From positions 1-64,000 of the forward strand of contig JACPDN010000002.1 of assembly GCA_016183985.1 (NCBI GenBank): 64,000 nt of DNA, in the 5' to 3' direction. The first letter of the stretch is position 1; each line of letters opens with the position of its first letter. This DNA is from Pseudomonadota bacterium (GTDB lineage: Bacteria > Pseudomonadota > Alphaproteobacteria > Dongiales > Dongiaceae). Below, one piece after another: positions 321-16,461 of this stretch. The position numbers were made by a program, and so were the translations under genes. The notes beneath the pieces were generated by a model, which searched no databases, had not been told where the DNA came from, and was given only the letters and a program-made list of their open reading frames with translations.

Positions 321-956
321 ATGATCGCGATCCTTGATCTGGGGATAAGCAATATCGGCTCGCTCAATCAGGCCTTTGCGCAGGTCGGCCTGAACGGCAA
401 GCTGACCCGTTCGGCCGCGGACATTCGTGCCGCCAAGGCCGTAATCCTGCCGGGCGTCGGCGCCTATCGCGACGCCATGGCATGCCTGCGCGATAACGGC
501 CTGATCGAGGAATTGCGCCTCGCTGCCAAGAGCGGCAAGCCGTTCCTGGGAATCTGCCTCGGCATGCAATTGCTGGCGACGCAGAGCGAAGAGCACGGCC
601 GCTATGACGGTCTTGGCGTATTACCGGGTAAGATCACGCTGTTGCCTGAATCGGACCGCGTGCGCGTGCCGAATATCGGTTGGTGCGACGTGGCACCGGC
701 GCGGGCCGGCATCCTGTTCCCGGAAGGCACCGAGACGCGCTCGTTCTATTTCGTGCATTCCTATCATTTCGTTCCGGAAGACAGCCGCGCTATCGCGGCA
801 ACGATTTCAACCGGCAATGCGCGGTTTGCGGCATCGGTCGAAGCCGGCAATGTCTTTGGTGTCCAGTTCCATCCCGAAAAGAGCCAGGATGCGGGGCTCG
901 ATCTGTTGTCCCGCTATGTTCATCACCTGCGCCAGAGTGGCTGTTATGAGCAATAG
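321..956 (+). CDS. hisH: HisH-like glutamine amidotransferase of the sugar-acetamidino pathway
   Basis: Class I glutamine amidotransferase of 211 aa, the usual HisH length. It has the nucleophile elbow GICLGMQ (Cys at about residue 79) and the His-Glu pair in QFHPEK (about 184 and 186). Such proteins release ammonia from glutamine for a partner synthase. True HisH works with HisF in histidine synthesis. Here the partner is a HisF-WbpG fusion, so this copy most likely belongs to the paralogous set (HisH2/HisF2/WbpG of Pseudomonas O-antigen, PseA-type systems) that turns an N-acetyl group on a sugar into an acetamidino group. A GTG at 318 abuts the ATG; I chose ATG 321, behind a weak GAGAAA. 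The gene overlaps the next by 11 nt, suggesting translational coupling. Confidence 0.85.
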   Translation: MIAILDLGISNIGSLNQAFAQVGLNGKLTRSAADIRAAKAVILPGVGAYRDAMACLRDNGLIEELRLAAKSGKPFLGICLGMQLLATQSEEHGRYDGLGVLPGKITLLPESDRVRVPNIGWCDVAPARAGILFPEGTETRSFYFVHSYHFVPEDSRAIAATISTGNARFAASVEAGNVFGVQFHPEKSQDAGLDLLSRYVHHLRQSGCYEQ

Positions 957-3021
957 CACCAACATCGCCCGACCACGCCTCGTTCCAGTCCTGCTGCTTA
1001 AGAACGGCCTTATCGTCCGCAGCCACGCCTTCACCACCCATCAGGTCATCGGCAATCCGATGGCGACGGTGCGGCGCCTTTCCAACTGGAACGTCGACGA
1101 ACTGGTTCTGTTGGATATTTCCGAGAATAATTTCCATGACCTGCGCCGGGACGACTTTCCGGTCAGCTATCGCGGCACGGGCCTGCTTGATGTGCTGCAC
1201 GAAGTGGCGAAGGTCTGCTTCATGCCGCTATCGATCGGCGGGCGTATCCGTACACTCGACGACATCTCGCTACGCCTCGCGCACGGTGCCGACAAGTGCA
1301 TCATCAATTCCGAGGCGGTCCGCAATCCGGGTTTCATCCGCGAAGCGGCGGAGCGTTTCGGCAGCCAGTGCATCGTGGTTTCGATCGACGTCAAGCGCCA
1401 TGCCGACGGTTCACTCGAAGTCTTCACGGGTGACGGCAAGATTCCGACCGGCAAGAACCCGGCCGATTGGGCGCGAGAGGCCGCGGCCCTTGGTGCTGGC
1501 GAGATCTTCCTTAATTCGATCGATCGCGATGGTGTGGCAAGCGGCTACGATATCGACCTGGTGCGCACGGTGTCGTCGGCGGTCAAAATCCCGGTTGTTG
1601 CCTGTGGCGGTGTCGGTTCCTATGCCGATTTCGCGCCCGGCGTGTTAGAGGGCGGCGCCGCAGCAGTTGCCGCCGCCAATATCTTTCATTTCTTCGAGAT
1701 CAGCTATCCGCTGGCCAAGCAAGCCTGCATCGATGCCGGCGTGCCCATGCGCGGCGTGCGCCTTGGCACGCAATGGCAGCGCCGCGAGCCGACCTATGAT
1801 GTGGCCGCAGAAGACAAGCGCCTTGAAGAGCGCCTGCGTCAGGCCAAGGAACGCGACTTCCCGGCCGCGCGACCCGAGGCCGCCAACCGACGCCGCGAGA
1901 TTCGCTGGTGCTCGCGCTGCGTCTATCCGTCGATCGGTGCGGCACCGATGGCCTTCGATGAGGACGGCGTCTGCATGGGCTGCCGCATGTCGCAGATCAA
2001 GAAGGAAATCCCTACCGCCGAATGGGACAAGCGCAAACAGGCGCTGATCCGCATCCTGGAACAGGGACGCAGCAAGGATGGCAGTCGCCATGATTGCGTC
2101 ATCGCGGTAAGCGGCGGTAAGGACAGCTATTTCCAGACGCACATGATCAAGAATGTGCTGGGCTTCAATCCCCTGCTTGTCACTTATGACGGCAATAACT
2201 GGACACCGACTGGTTGGCGCAACATGCTGCGCATGTCCGAGGTATTCGGCGTCGATCACATCATCGTGCGCCCATCGGTCCAGGTGCTCAAGAAGCTCAA
2301 CCGCCTGGCCTTCAAGGTAATGGGCGATATGAACTGGCACGCTCATGTCGGGATCAATACCGCACCGGTCAGGGTCGCCGCCCAGCATAAGATCCCATTG
2401 GTGATCTGGGGCGAGCATGGCTACATGGACCTGTCTGGCCAGTTCTCGATGAACGATTTCCCGGAGATGTCTTATCGCCAGCGCCTGGAGCATTTCGGCC
2501 GCGGCTATGAGTGGAATTACTTTGTCGGCCGCGAAGGGCTGACGGCCAGCGACCTCATTCCCTACCAGTATCCGACAGATGAAGAGATCTTCAATCTGAA
2601 CCTGCGTGGCATCTATATCGGCAATTACGTCTATTGGGAGGCGAACGATCACACGAAGATGGTGATCGATCGCTATGGCTTCGAGGTGAGCAACATTCCC
2701 TTCGATCGCACCTATCGTCGCATGTCGAACCTCGATGACATGCATGAGAATGGTATCCACGACTATCTCAAATGGATCAAGTTCGGCTATGGCCGCTGCA
2801 CCGATCATGCCTGCAAGGACATTCGCTCCGGCCAGATCACGCGTGATGACGCAGTGGCGCTGGTCAAGCGCTATGACCCCGTCAAGTCGAGCGATCTCAA
2901 ACGCTGGCTGGATTATGTCGGCATGACCGAGGTCGAATTCGATACCATCGCCGATACGTTCCGCGACCCGCGGGTTTGGCGCATGGAAAGCGGCGTCTGG
3001 GCGAAGACCGAGATCGCCTAG
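946..3021 (+). CDS. Fused HisF-like cyclase / WbpG-like N-acetyl sugar amidotransferase
   Basis: One uninterrupted 691-aa frame carries two enzymes. Residues about 1-265 are a HisF-like (beta/alpha)8 barrel (VPVLLLKNGLIV, SIGGRIR, IVVSIDVK, ACGGVGS). After a charged linker (about 266-315) comes an N-acetyl sugar amidotransferase: a zinc-type Cys pattern (WCSRCVYP, then CMGC), the PP-loop SGGKDS at residues 389-394, and WGEHGY further on. In Pseudomonas O-antigen clusters these halves are separate proteins that act with HisH2. ATG 946 is chosen because the protein then starts like other HisF proteins; the frame is open further upstream only inside hisH. The predicted product installs an acetamidino group on a nonulosonic or uronic sugar, fed with ammonia by the upstream HisH. 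The 3' TAG overlaps the TAG of the opposing gene. Confidence 0.85.
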   Translation: MSNSTNIARPRLVPVLLLKNGLIVRSHAFTTHQVIGNPMATVRRLSNWNVDELVLLDISENNFHDLRRDDFPVSYRGTGLLDVLHEVAKVCFMPLSIGGRIRTLDDISLRLAHGADKCIINSEAVRNPGFIREAAERFGSQCIVVSIDVKRHADGSLEVFTGDGKIPTGKNPADWAREAAALGAGEIFLNSIDRDGVASGYDIDLVRTVSSAVKIPVVACGGVGSYADFAPGVLEGGAAAVAAANIFHFFEISYPLAKQACIDAGVPMRGVRLGTQWQRREPTYDVAAEDKRLEERLRQAKERDFPAARPEAANRRREIRWCSRCVYPSIGAAPMAFDEDGVCMGCRMSQIKKEIPTAEWDKRKQALIRILEQGRSKDGSRHDCVIAVSGGKDSYFQTHMIKNVLGFNPLLVTYDGNNWTPTGWRNMLRMSEVFGVDHIIVRPSVQVLKKLNRLAFKVMGDMNWHAHVGINTAPVRVAAQHKIPLVIWGEHGYMDLSGQFSMNDFPEMSYRQRLEHFGRGYEWNYFVGREGLTASDLIPYQYPTDEEIFNLNLRGIYIGNYVYWEANDHTKMVIDRYGFEVSNIPFDRTYRRMSNLDDMHENGIHDYLKWIKFGYGRCTDHACKDIRSGQITRDDAVALVKRYDPVKSSDLKRWLDYVGMTEVEFDTIADTFRDPRVWRMESGVWAKTEIA

Positions 3022-8783: not shown

Positions 8784-8873
8784 CGTGATATCAGGCTGCG
8801 CCAATACAATCGGCGATTGACGGCAAGGCCGCCTGCCAACATTCTGGCGTGAGTTCCTTCTGCGGGATTCTTG

Positions 8874-9341
8874 ATGGCCGATTGGCTCGACACCTGTCAC
8901 CCGGACGTTCGTGTGGTGCTGGAATACTGGCAGCGCAAATGTGCCGGCCGGGCTATGCCGTCGCGCAGCGATATCGATCCCAGCGAGTTGCGCAACTTCC
9001 TGCCGCACATCACGCTGGTCGACGTGGTCGATGATCCGCGACGCTTCGTCTATCGCCTGATCGGCACGGCGGAGGTCGAACTGCGCGGTTATGATCCGAC
9101 CGGCAAGGCCGTGGCCGATGCCTATTTCGCGACCAGCGCCGAGGAAGCGCTGAAGCATTACGAGGCCACGCGGACGAGCCGGACGCCGCATTACATTGCC
9201 GACCCCTTCCAGGCGGTCGACCGCTTCATCGGCGAAGAAGATCTGTTTCTGCCGCTCTCGAATGACGGCGAAACGGTCAATATGATCATGGTATTCTCGA
9301 TCAGCCGCGATCTCTTTCAATCCGATGACGATGCAGATTGA
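8874..9341 (+). CDS. PAS_5-family protein, first tandem copy
   Basis: A 155-aa single-domain protein of the alphaproteobacterial PAS_5 family (PF07310). Typical features are CHPDVRVVLEYWQRKCAGR, a conserved DIDPSELRNFLPHITLVDVV, RFVYRLIGTAEVELRGYDPTG and the closing FLPLSNDGETVNMIMVFS. There is no output domain, signal peptide or membrane helix, so it probably binds a ligand or partner as a free-standing cytosolic sensor. ATG 8874 is preceded directly by TTG 8871; the ATG is preferred. The next gene encodes a close paralogue aligned from its first residues, so the pair arose by local duplication. Function is unknown. Confidence 0.85.
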   Translation: MADWLDTCHPDVRVVLEYWQRKCAGRAMPSRSDIDPSELRNFLPHITLVDVVDDPRRFVYRLIGTAEVELRGYDPTGKAVADAYFATSAEEALKHYEATRTSRTPHYIADPFQAVDRFIGEEDLFLPLSNDGETVNMIMVFSISRDLFQSDDDAD

Positions 9342-9351
9342 TTTTCCGCCG

Positions 9352-9813
9352 ATGAACGACTGGACCAAGACCTGCCATCCCGACATCCGCCTGATGCTCG
9401 ACTATTGGCGCGGTAAATGCGCCGGTCGCCTGATGCCGGCGCGTGGAGATCTCGATCCAGTCGAAATCGGCCGCTTTCTCCCATATGTGACGCTGGTCGA
9501 TGTGGTCGACGATGAGCGGCGCTTCGTCTATCGCCTGGTCGGCACGATGGAAGTGGCGCTGCGCGGAAGCGATCCGACTGGGCGTCCGGTCGGCGATGCC
9601 TATTTCGGCCGCTCGGCCGATGCCGTGATGGGAAAATATGAAACCGTCTGCAGAACACGGTCGCCGTTCTATGAGATCGACGATTTCCGCGTGACGGATC
9701 GCTATGTGAACGAGGAGAATCTCTTCATGCCGCTCTCCGACGATGGCGAGATGGTGAACAAAATCCTCGTCTTCTCGATCAATCGCGACCTTTACGCGGT
9801 GGGCGCGGACTGA
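9352..9813 (+). CDS. PAS_5-family protein, second tandem copy
   Basis: A 153-aa paralogue of the preceding protein. It shares MxDWxxTCHPD, the YWRGKCAGRLMPARGDLDP stretch, VTLVDVVDD, RFVYRLVGTMEVALRG, the DPTGRPVGDAYF turn and LFMPLSDDGEMVNKILVFSI. I chose ATG 9352 because it aligns exactly with the start of the upstream copy. ATG 9325 or 9331 would overlap that gene and add 7-9 residues without a ribosome binding site. The 3' end overlaps the opposing oxyR gene by 22 nt. As with its neighbour there is no effector domain, and the ligand is unknown. Confidence 0.85.
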   Translation: MNDWTKTCHPDIRLMLDYWRGKCAGRLMPARGDLDPVEIGRFLPYVTLVDVVDDERRFVYRLVGTMEVALRGSDPTGRPVGDAYFGRSADAVMGKYETVCRTRSPFYEIDDFRVTDRYVNEENLFMPLSDDGEMVNKILVFSINRDLYAVGAD

Positions 9814-14895: not shown

Positions 14896-15107
14896 CACCG
14901 ATCCGTCACAAAACGTTGCTAGAAGCCGCCGATATACGGGCCGGCGGGCAGATTTCCCGCCACACTGCCTGTTTGTGACGGGTGGGTAAAGCGCCACTTG
15001 CGCCGCGCGGCTTTTCCCGCGACAGTGCGGGCAAGCGGCGGTTTTGAGCCATTTTCCATGGGATATGACGGCCGGGTGGGGCCGTGATTGCAAGGTGGTT
15101 GGGACAG

Positions 15108-15737
15108 ATGATCGATCTCTATTCCTGGGCGACGCCCAACGGGCACAAGGCCCATATCATGCTGGAGGAGACGGGACTCCCCTATCGGCTGCACAAGGTG
15201 GATATCGGCAAGGGCGAGCAGTTCCGGCCTGATTTCCTGGCGATCAACCCTAACAGCAAGATTCCGGCGATCGTCGATCAGGACGGACCCGGCGGCAAGC
15301 CGATCACGCTCTTCGAATCTGGGGCCATCCTGATCTACCTCGCCGAAAAGACCGGCAAGTTCCTGCCCGCCGACAAGCGCCGTCGTTATGACGTGCTGCA
15401 ATGGCTGATGTTCCAGATGGGGTCGATCGGCCCGATGTACGGTCAGGCTTGGCATTTCCGTTCCGTGGCGCCTGAGCGCATCCCTTATGCCGTGGAACGC
15501 TACACCAATGAAGTGACGCGCCTGCTGCGTGTGATGGAGCATCGCCTCAAGGAAAGCGCCTATATCGGCGACAAGGAATTCTCGATCGCCGATATCGCTG
15601 CCTGGCCTTGGGTGAAGGGCAGCGAAAAATACGGCCAGGACATGCGCGATTTCCCCAATGTCGTGCGCTGGATCGGCACGATCGCCGAACGACCGGCCGT
15701 GCAGCGCGGCCTCAATGCGCTGCTGAAAGCGGCGTGA
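15108..15737 (+). CDS. Nu-class glutathione S-transferase (YfcG-like), first copy
   Basis: A 209-aa two-domain GST of the YfcG/Ure2-like class. The thioredoxin-fold half starts MIDLYSWATPNGHKAHIMLE, with the TPNG segment that replaces the catalytic Tyr/Ser/Cys of other classes. NSKIPAIVDQDGPGGKPITLFESGAILIYLAEKTG has the cis-Pro and the glutathione-gamma-glutamyl-binding ESGA. The alpha-helical half ends FPNVVRWIGTIAERPAVQRGL. Members typically have disulfide-bond reductase activity with glutathione. ATG 15108 is chosen because it aligns with the next gene; an upstream start adds 8 residues. It is followed 16 nt later by a close paralogue, and the two are probably co-transcribed. Confidence 0.9.
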   Translation: MIDLYSWATPNGHKAHIMLEETGLPYRLHKVDIGKGEQFRPDFLAINPNSKIPAIVDQDGPGGKPITLFESGAILIYLAEKTGKFLPADKRRRYDVLQWLMFQMGSIGPMYGQAWHFRSVAPERIPYAVERYTNEVTRLLRVMEHRLKESAYIGDKEFSIADIAAWPWVKGSEKYGQDMRDFPNVVRWIGTIAERPAVQRGLNALLKAA

Positions 15738-15753: not shown

Positions 15754-16461
15754 ATGAGCGCAGCAATCGACCTCTATACCTGGCCAACGCCCAACGGGCA
15801 CAAGATCCATATCGCGCTGGAGGAAATGGGCCTTGCCTATAACGTCCATGCCGTCGACATCGGTGCCGGCGACCAGTTCCAGCCGGCTTTCCTGAAGATC
15901 AGCCCCAACAACAAGATCCCCGCCATGGTCGATCCGGACGGGCCCGATGGCCAGCCGATAGCACTCATGGAATCGGGAGCGATGCTCATCTATCTCGCCG
16001 AGAAGACGGGAAAGCTCCTGTCAGCAGATCCCCGTGAGCGGGCAATCACGCTGCAGTGGCTGATGTTCCAGATGGGCGGCGTTGGGCCAATGCTGGGCCA
16101 GACCCACCATTTCCGCTCTTATGCGCCGGAGCAGTATCCCTACGCCATCAAGCGCTATACCGACGAGACGACACGGCTTTATCAGGTGCTCGACAAGCGC
16201 TTGGGCGAGGCCCCGTATATGGCCGGCGCCGATTTCAGCATCGCCGATATCGCAACTTGGCCGTGGCTGCGTTACTGGGACCGCCAAGGGCAGGACATGA
16301 ACGCCCACCCCAACCTCAAGCGCTGGTTCGAAGCCATCGCCGAACGGCCGGCGGTCGAGAAGGCGCTGCAGGTCTTGGCGGAGCGGAGCCGCAAACAGCC
16401 CTTCACGCCCCAGGAACGGGATATCCTGTTTGGCGCAAAACAGCTCGATCGGCGCTCGTAA
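15754..16461 (+). CDS. Nu-class glutathione S-transferase (YfcG-like), second copy
   Basis: A 235-aa paralogue of the preceding GST: AIDLYTWPTPNGHKIHIALE, ISPNNKIPAMVDPDGPDGQP and LMESGAMLIYLAEKTGKLLS repeat the same landmarks. It carries about 20 extra C-terminal residues (SRKQPFTPQERDILFGAKQ). GGAGGGG lies about 9 nt before ATG 15754. The tandem pair suggests a duplication with possible split of substrate range. Stop codon at 16459-16461 is followed by the tRNA-Ser leader. Confidence 0.9.
   Translation: MSAAIDLYTWPTPNGHKIHIALEEMGLAYNVHAVDIGAGDQFQPAFLKISPNNKIPAMVDPDGPDGQPIALMESGAMLIYLAEKTGKLLSADPRERAITLQWLMFQMGGVGPMLGQTHHFRSYAPEQYPYAIKRYTDETTRLYQVLDKRLGEAPYMAGADFSIADIATWPWLRYWDRQGQDMNAHPNLKRWFEAIAERPAVEKALQVLAERSRKQPFTPQERDILFGAKQLDRRS

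Follow-up and report, generated by a model that had tools for sequence, protein, structure and literature searches.

The first 64,000 nucleotides of contig JACPDN010000002.1, from an alphaproteobacterium of the Dongiaceae (this whole stretch is the window; base 1 of the window is base 1 of the contig, here C9), carry on the forward strand a gene whose product joins a HisF-like barrel to an N-acetyl sugar amidotransferase (NASAT), next to a gene for a HisH-type glutaminase. The fusion is genuine and not the result of chance or sequencing error, because both halves are joined at 39 other loci and the linker between them is conserved. We consider it likely that the two genes encode a three-part amidination machine working in the order HisH, barrel and NASAT, that it yields the acetamidino form of pseudaminic acid (Pse5Ac7Am), a bacterial surface sugar, in this genome, and that the fusion arose once and then spread. 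The features concerned are as follows.

2–262, + strand: 3′ end of pseB (UDP-N-acetylglucosamine [UDP-GlcNAc] 4,6-dehydratase, inverting), cut by the left edge of the contig; TIGR03589
318–956, + strand: hisH-like glutaminase gene, 212 amino acids, GTG start; TIGR01855
946–3021, + strand: HisF-like barrel::NASAT fusion, 691 amino acids; open reading frame translation, profiles and predicted fold
976–1752, + strand: HisF-like barrel, residues 11–269; aligned HisF positions and matches to HisF structures
1753–1896, + strand: linker, residues 270–317, with R-E-P-x-Y and a predicted helix at 286–302
1897–3018, + strand: NASAT half (WbuX/WbpG type), residues 318–691; TIGR03573 and match to 8wex
1909–1983, + strand: tetracysteine zinc motif, C322-x2-C325 ... 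G-V-C343-x2-C346; cysteines invariant in 38 fused rows
2110–2127, + strand: PP-loop SGGKDS, residues 389–394; alignment of 38 fused rows

The 691 residues are read from a single frame with zero internal stops. Domain calls were made with NCBIfam profiles and their curated cut-offs, which agree with the translation and bear out an earlier sequence-only reading that one stop-free frame links a HisF-like barrel to a NASAT after hisH. The end of pseB, hisH and the fusion follow one another on the same strand, with 55 bases between pseB and the hisH start and 11 bases shared by the fusion ATG and the 3′ end of hisH. Because the frame remains open 5′ of position 946, where the earliest listed start is an ATG at 604, the start codon of the fusion is a choice.

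The NASAT half belongs to the WbuX/NASAT family by profile, with residues 320–669 matching TIGR03573 at 309.5 bits (cut-off 203.2). The PP-loop motif SGGXDS and the tetracysteine motif CXXC...[GN]XCXXC were defined for LpNASAT, in which the latter binds zinc (PMC10607449). Both are present in the window protein, as SGGKDS at residues 389–394, the position that the sequence-only reading had given, and as C322, C325, C343 and C346; a loss of zinc or PP-loop residues, which that reading had raised as a possibility, was not found. All four cysteines are invariant in 38/38 fused rows, as are S389, G390, G391 and D393. By analogy, the NASAT half would make an acetamidino group from an N-acetyl group in an ATP-dependent reaction; several sugars serve as substrates of these enzymes, whose structure and function are described as little known in the abstract of the same study (PMC10607449). 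One fused locus, L049 (6016–8100), has SGGRDG as its PP-loop and Cys-Arg-Glu in its HisH, and since both sites are changed this copy may be decayed or poorly sequenced. Separately, seven loci, all of the DUF4910 or related setting described below, have close to the fusion a second, distant NASAT (∼28 to 34% identical) in which SGGKDS and the cysteine pairs are intact (L008, 370–1449; L026, 684–1760; L028, 1655–2731; L043, 1542–2618; and, on the minus strand, L022, L034 and L058).

The neighboring gene encodes a HisH-type glutaminase, matching TIGR01855 at 193.7 bits (cut-off 105.4) and holding the Cys-His-Glu triad as Cys78 (549–551), His185 (870–872) and Glu187. A hisH gene is present in 39 of the 40 fused loci, upstream of the fusion in 38 and downstream in L030, and the triad is complete in 38 of these 39, the exception being L049. 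Frames open far upstream (1397 codons in L049; also L022, L034 and L058) had raised the suspicion of a HisH-barrel-NASAT triple fusion. This was rejected, as none was found among the 39 fused loci with HisH. At 28 of them hisH occupies a different frame, at 10 it shares the frame of the fusion but a stop intervenes, and at one, L030, it is located downstream. A long open frame 5′ of the NASAT gene of L067 gave no HisF match.

The HisF-like NCBIfam models all match within residues 8–269 of the fusion, and the barrel falls short of each of the three families: 248.0 bits for WbuZ (TIGR03572; cut-off 299.7), 215.8 for AglZ/HisF2 (NF038364; cut-off 310) and 206.7 for HisF (TIGR00735; cut-off 294.55). 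As seven other barrels that were scanned, four unfused and three from fused relatives, also lie under these cut-offs, the barrel looks like a subfamily that the WbuZ, AglZ/HisF2 and HisF models do not yet name. In HisF itself, D11 is the general acid and D130 the general base, according to the available part of PMC11350729. Of this catalytic pair the window fusion keeps D130, as D148 (Asp in 40/40 fused and 38/38 paired barrels), and has lost D11, in whose place stands L17 (994–996). The D11 position holds Leu in 38 fused rows, Phe in one and a gap in one, and in the paired barrels Leu in 15, Tyr in 11, Phe in 10 and Asn in 2, so that Asp occurs in 0 of 39 fused rows with a residue and in 0 of 38 paired rows. 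Since the position is never Asp, the label “cyclase,” which the sequence-only reading had attached to the barrel, is probably wrong.

The ammonia gate of HisF, which we take to be R5, E46, K99 and E167 in the T. maritima numbering, is retained in the window fusion as R11, E52, K117 and E186. Among fused rows the four positions hold Arg in 37/37 with a residue there, Glu in 40/40, Lys in 39/40 (one Arg) and Glu in 40/40, and among paired rows each is conserved in 38/38. With D11 lost and the gate kept, the barrel reads as an ammonia conduit rather than a cyclase. An insertion after strand 2 carries R68, which is Arg in 78/78 fused and paired rows; the insertion is missing from the canonical HisF of this genome. 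With barrel faces assigned through predicted secondary structure, majority frequencies across fused and paired rows averaged 0.73 in the bottom loops, 0.66 in the top loops, 0.51 in the outer helices and 0.74 in the strands. Both ends of the barrel are thus more conserved than its outside, the bottom more so than the top, a pattern that use of both faces would explain, although this does not tell which face the NASAT half covers.

The linker was examined in the 38 full-length fused rows, where R280 is conserved in 37, E281 in 35, P282 in 35, Y284 in 36 and R296 in 37, and where the segment corresponding to residues 270–321 spans 40 to 52 residues in every row. An AlphaFold2 model of the window fusion, built on 104 aligned sequences, gave a predicted local distance difference test (pLDDT) score of 93.1 and a predicted template modeling (pTM) score of 0.91; for the divergent relative L037 (52% identical; 32 fused sequences aligned) the values were 88.7 and 0.88. 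Scores this high for two domains suggest that the halves hold a fixed arrangement. Residues 315–691 match the NASAT structure 8wex (Z 37.9, root mean square deviation 2.4, 349 aligned residues), residues within 7–277 match HisF structures at Z of about 33 to 36, and no structure chain covering both halves was found among the matches listed (50 Foldseek rows and a second list of 50 entries).

We scanned one genome per species, 84,980 species in all, and found 144 relatives; the best 80 of the 144 and the window make up the 81 loci that were sorted. In 40 of the 81 a single uninterrupted frame runs across both halves (L029 and L033 being cut by contig ends), and in 41 the NASAT gene is separate from any HisF-like gene. 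The fused architecture that the sequence-only reading suggested looking for elsewhere is therefore present in other genomes and not peculiar to this one. It occurs in the isolates Acidovorax delafieldii DSM 64, Leptolyngbya PCC 6406, Desulfovibrio sp. A2 and Rhabdaerophilum calidifontis, and the 40 fused loci carry the labels of nine phyla (those given to metagenome bins may be in error): Pseudomonadota (17), Cyanobacteriota (5), Thermodesulfobacteriota, Myxococcota and Actinomycetota (4 each), and Verrucomicrobiota, Planctomycetota, Fidelibacterota and Armatimonadota (1 each), with two unlabeled, the window included. A second, independent fusion group of 11 loci (L038–L042, L044–L047, L050 and L051) was suspected because tblastn matches spanned both halves; it was rejected on finding in-frame stops between two genes, and these loci are counted as unfused. 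Near the window the fusion is rare. It was found in 0 of 60 relatives, and of 398 genomes drawn evenly from the same phylum two matched at an E value of ≤1e-110, one being the window's own genome. Plasmid records with a match numbered 95, and among the matches listed 7 reach a query coverage of at least 80%, always as two separate pieces at 30 to 36% identity; none of the 14 phage records with a match reaches that coverage.

All 40 fused sequences lie on one side of a branch in a quick tree of the NASAT half (87 rows; Shimodaira-Hasegawa-like approximate likelihood ratio test [SH-aLRT] 99) and form one clade in that of the barrel half (79 rows; SH-aLRT 100), with several phyla intermixed within the fused clade. 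In 35 of the 41 unfused loci, hisH, hisF and nasat are adjacent in that order. Because the fused sequences form one clade in the trees of both halves, the simplest reading would be a single fusion of a neighboring hisF-nasat pair, seemingly an ancient one, followed by horizontal transfer. Scattered in its occurrence and apparently of single origin, the fusion is a variant of a three-part system that was already known.

The surroundings of the fusion point to pseudaminic acid. The pseB fragment, the last 86 codons of the gene, matches positions 240–323 of the 324 in TIGR03589 at 87.5 bits, far under the cut-off of 407.75 as befits a fragment. A second pseB end lies at C1:8–256, its first 141 bases identical to those of the window (91% identity across 262 bases), and contigs C4 and C15 each start with the beginning of a pseB (99.5% over 222 bases). 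Since four contigs begin inside near-identical pseB stretches, duplication of pseB is probably what interrupted the assembly, and the left edge of the window would be a repeat break. Elsewhere in the genome, PseI (C1:6471) and PseC (C4:42300) exceed their cut-offs, and C1 also holds a PseG match and a nucleotidyltransferase match, which we take to be SpsF-like. These matches indicate that the genome probably makes pseudaminic acid, and with pseB adjoining the fusion and PseC and PseI in the genome, the acetamidino form is the likeliest product of the fused enzyme. The nearest setting is thus not that of the Pseudomonas O-antigen loci to which the sequence-only reading had compared the gene. 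The available part of PMC13317340 assigns the acetamidino step of pseudaminic acid to PseA.

A different setting emerged from the flanks of the other loci. Among the 40 fused loci, a PseI match occurs in 7 and a DUF4910 protein in 20, never both in one locus, while 13, including the window (L001), have none of PseI, PseB, PseG and DUF4910, the window's pseB fragment lying under the threshold used; the 41 unfused loci have a PseI match in 29 and DUF4910 in 1. As the fetched flanks did not exceed 6 kb and were often truncated, these absences are weak, and some PseI matches are 29 to 38% identical and may be other NeuB-family enzymes. In 17 of the 20 loci the gene immediately 5′ of hisH is that for DUF4910. 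Three kinds of methyltransferase occur in 15, 15 and 17 of the 20, and 11 encode a protein with 24 to 32% identity to an asparagine-synthase-like one; one example, L078, matched PF16254 at 145.6 bits. The cassette DUF4910-hisH-fusion-methyltransferases without PseI was seen in L004, L005, L006, L008, L012, L017, L018, L019, L078 and others. From gene neighborhoods, DUF4910 proteins have been linked to a modified surface carbohydrate, perhaps through transacylation to an amino sugar (Das and others, available part of PMC4000134). Thus the fused enzyme is probably also employed in a second pathway.

We propose the following mechanism. HisH, with its intact triad, would split glutamine to release ammonia. 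As in HisF structures, it would dock at the bottom of the barrel, and the ammonia would cross the conserved gate and the barrel, which, its general acid lost, would now be chiefly a conduit and scaffold. The top of the barrel would pass ammonia to the covalently joined NASAT half. As in the PP-loop family, this half would activate the N-acetyl oxygen with ATP, releasing AMP and pyrophosphate, and NH would replace the oxygen to form the acetamidino group. The substrate here would most likely be a pseudaminic acid intermediate or its cytidine monophosphate (CMP) form, giving Pse5Ac7Am. The fusion would have arisen once from a hisF-nasat pair and spread later among lineages. The central idea of the sequence-only reading, that a channel is coupled to an adenylating enzyme, remains the best reading. 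Its wording, an ammonia tunnel and an adenylating site in one chain, is supported in part, by the kept gate and the confident packing of both halves.

Three other explanations were weighed. That two ordinary genes were joined by accidental read-through, by misassembly or by a frameshift error might be imagined from loci such as L038 and L039, where a single in-frame stop separates an unfused hisF-nasat pair, but it is scarcely credible against 39 other joined loci, named isolates among them, and the conserved linker; those frames make a frameshift in the window very unlikely. It is also highly improbable, if slightly less so, that the barrel has kept the cyclase function of imidazole glycerol phosphate synthase and that the fusion ties histidine and purine metabolism to sugar amidination. 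The fold is close to HisF (Z about 33 to 36), D130 is conserved, and so are most glycines in the presumed phosphate-binding loops, yet D11 is replaced by Leu, the position that we take to be T171 holds Asn or Gln in 40/40 fused rows, the HisF score stays below its cut-off (206.7 against 294.55 bits), and the genome has a separate, canonical HisF with D11 at C2:443620.

An altered substrate for the same machine, such as an N-acetyl hexosamine or another nonulosonate (compare WbpG, ManNAc3NAmA; WbuX, FucNAm; and legionaminic acid), is a more serious contender that we nonetheless find rather unlikely. The range of sugars used by NASATs (PMC10607449), the 20 of 40 fused loci with DUF4910 and no PseI match, and a second NeuB/PseI-family gene at C14:55446 under the PseI cut-off favor it; the pseB end 55 bases 5′ of hisH and the PseI matches flanking 7 of 40 fused and 29 of 41 unfused loci (some perhaps other NeuB-family enzymes) speak for pseudaminic acid. 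For the DUF4910 cassette without PseI, we tentatively entertain recruitment after the fusion into an undescribed pathway in which the barrel feeds ammonia to the NASAT half on a non-nonulosonic sugar, an idea that we would sooner doubt than adopt.

Several observations weigh against a single-origin HisH-barrel-NASAT machine making Pse5Ac7Am. The contig starts within pseB, so the window's own upstream context is not visible, and the gene at C14:55446 makes another nonulosonic acid possible in this genome. With DUF4910 in 20 of the 40 fused loci and PseI in none of those 20, the fused enzymes probably do not all make pseudaminic acid. The scan query was itself fused and the best 80 of 144 relatives were kept, which favors fused sequences, and a fused sequence far outside the fused clade would escape such a scan. 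Six other genomes of the same genus lack the fusion at an E value of ≤1e-60, four of them having separate NASAT or HisF relatives 37 to 50% identical. Both trees were made by a quick method, and SH-aLRT is not bootstrap. The pTM values are no proof of a tunnel, and that the NASAT half covers the barrel top, and not its bottom or side, is inferred.

WbpG and WbuX (TIGR03573) and LpNASAT (8wex) have in common with the fusion the PP-loop, the tetracysteine zinc motif and the fold (Z 37.9), whereas the window protein adds an N-terminal HisF-like barrel and a conserved linker; all three are, to our knowledge, separate chains. WbuZ and AglZ-HisF2 (TIGR03572 and NF038364) are the two top-scoring families for the barrel, which lies under both cut-offs and is fused to a NASAT; genes of these types are found with NASAT and HisH genes in the available part of PMC11340318. 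The window system resembles HisF/HisH and HIS7 in combining a glutaminase with a barrel, which HIS7 (HisHF) fuses into one protein (available part of PMC1963479), but its barrel is joined to the presumed acceptor enzyme instead of the glutaminase and has lost D11. PseA, the CMP-Pse5Ac7Am acetamidino-synthase, likely carries out the same product step, a likeness drawn from gene neighborhood (PseI in 7 of 40 loci, pseB here), and it is not described as a fusion in the available part of PMC13317340. A HisF-NASAT fusion is likewise not described in the available portions of the open-access PMC literature searched, including PMC11340318, PMC3694923, PMC7371886, PMC13317340, PMC11237513 and PMC1963479. 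In the same portions, prior knowledge of the nitrogen source of acetamidino groups seems to come mostly from gene neighborhoods and mutants. That the HisF-like barrel and the NASAT are fused in nature argues strongly that the two act as one body, in a fixed ratio, and together with HisH the fusion offers a two-protein system amenable to expression and structure solving.

Elsewhere in the window, the frames at 8871–9341 and 9325–9813 are a pair of similar neighbors, and those at 15084–15737 and 15754–16461 are a second similar pair that look glutathione transferase-like by eye.

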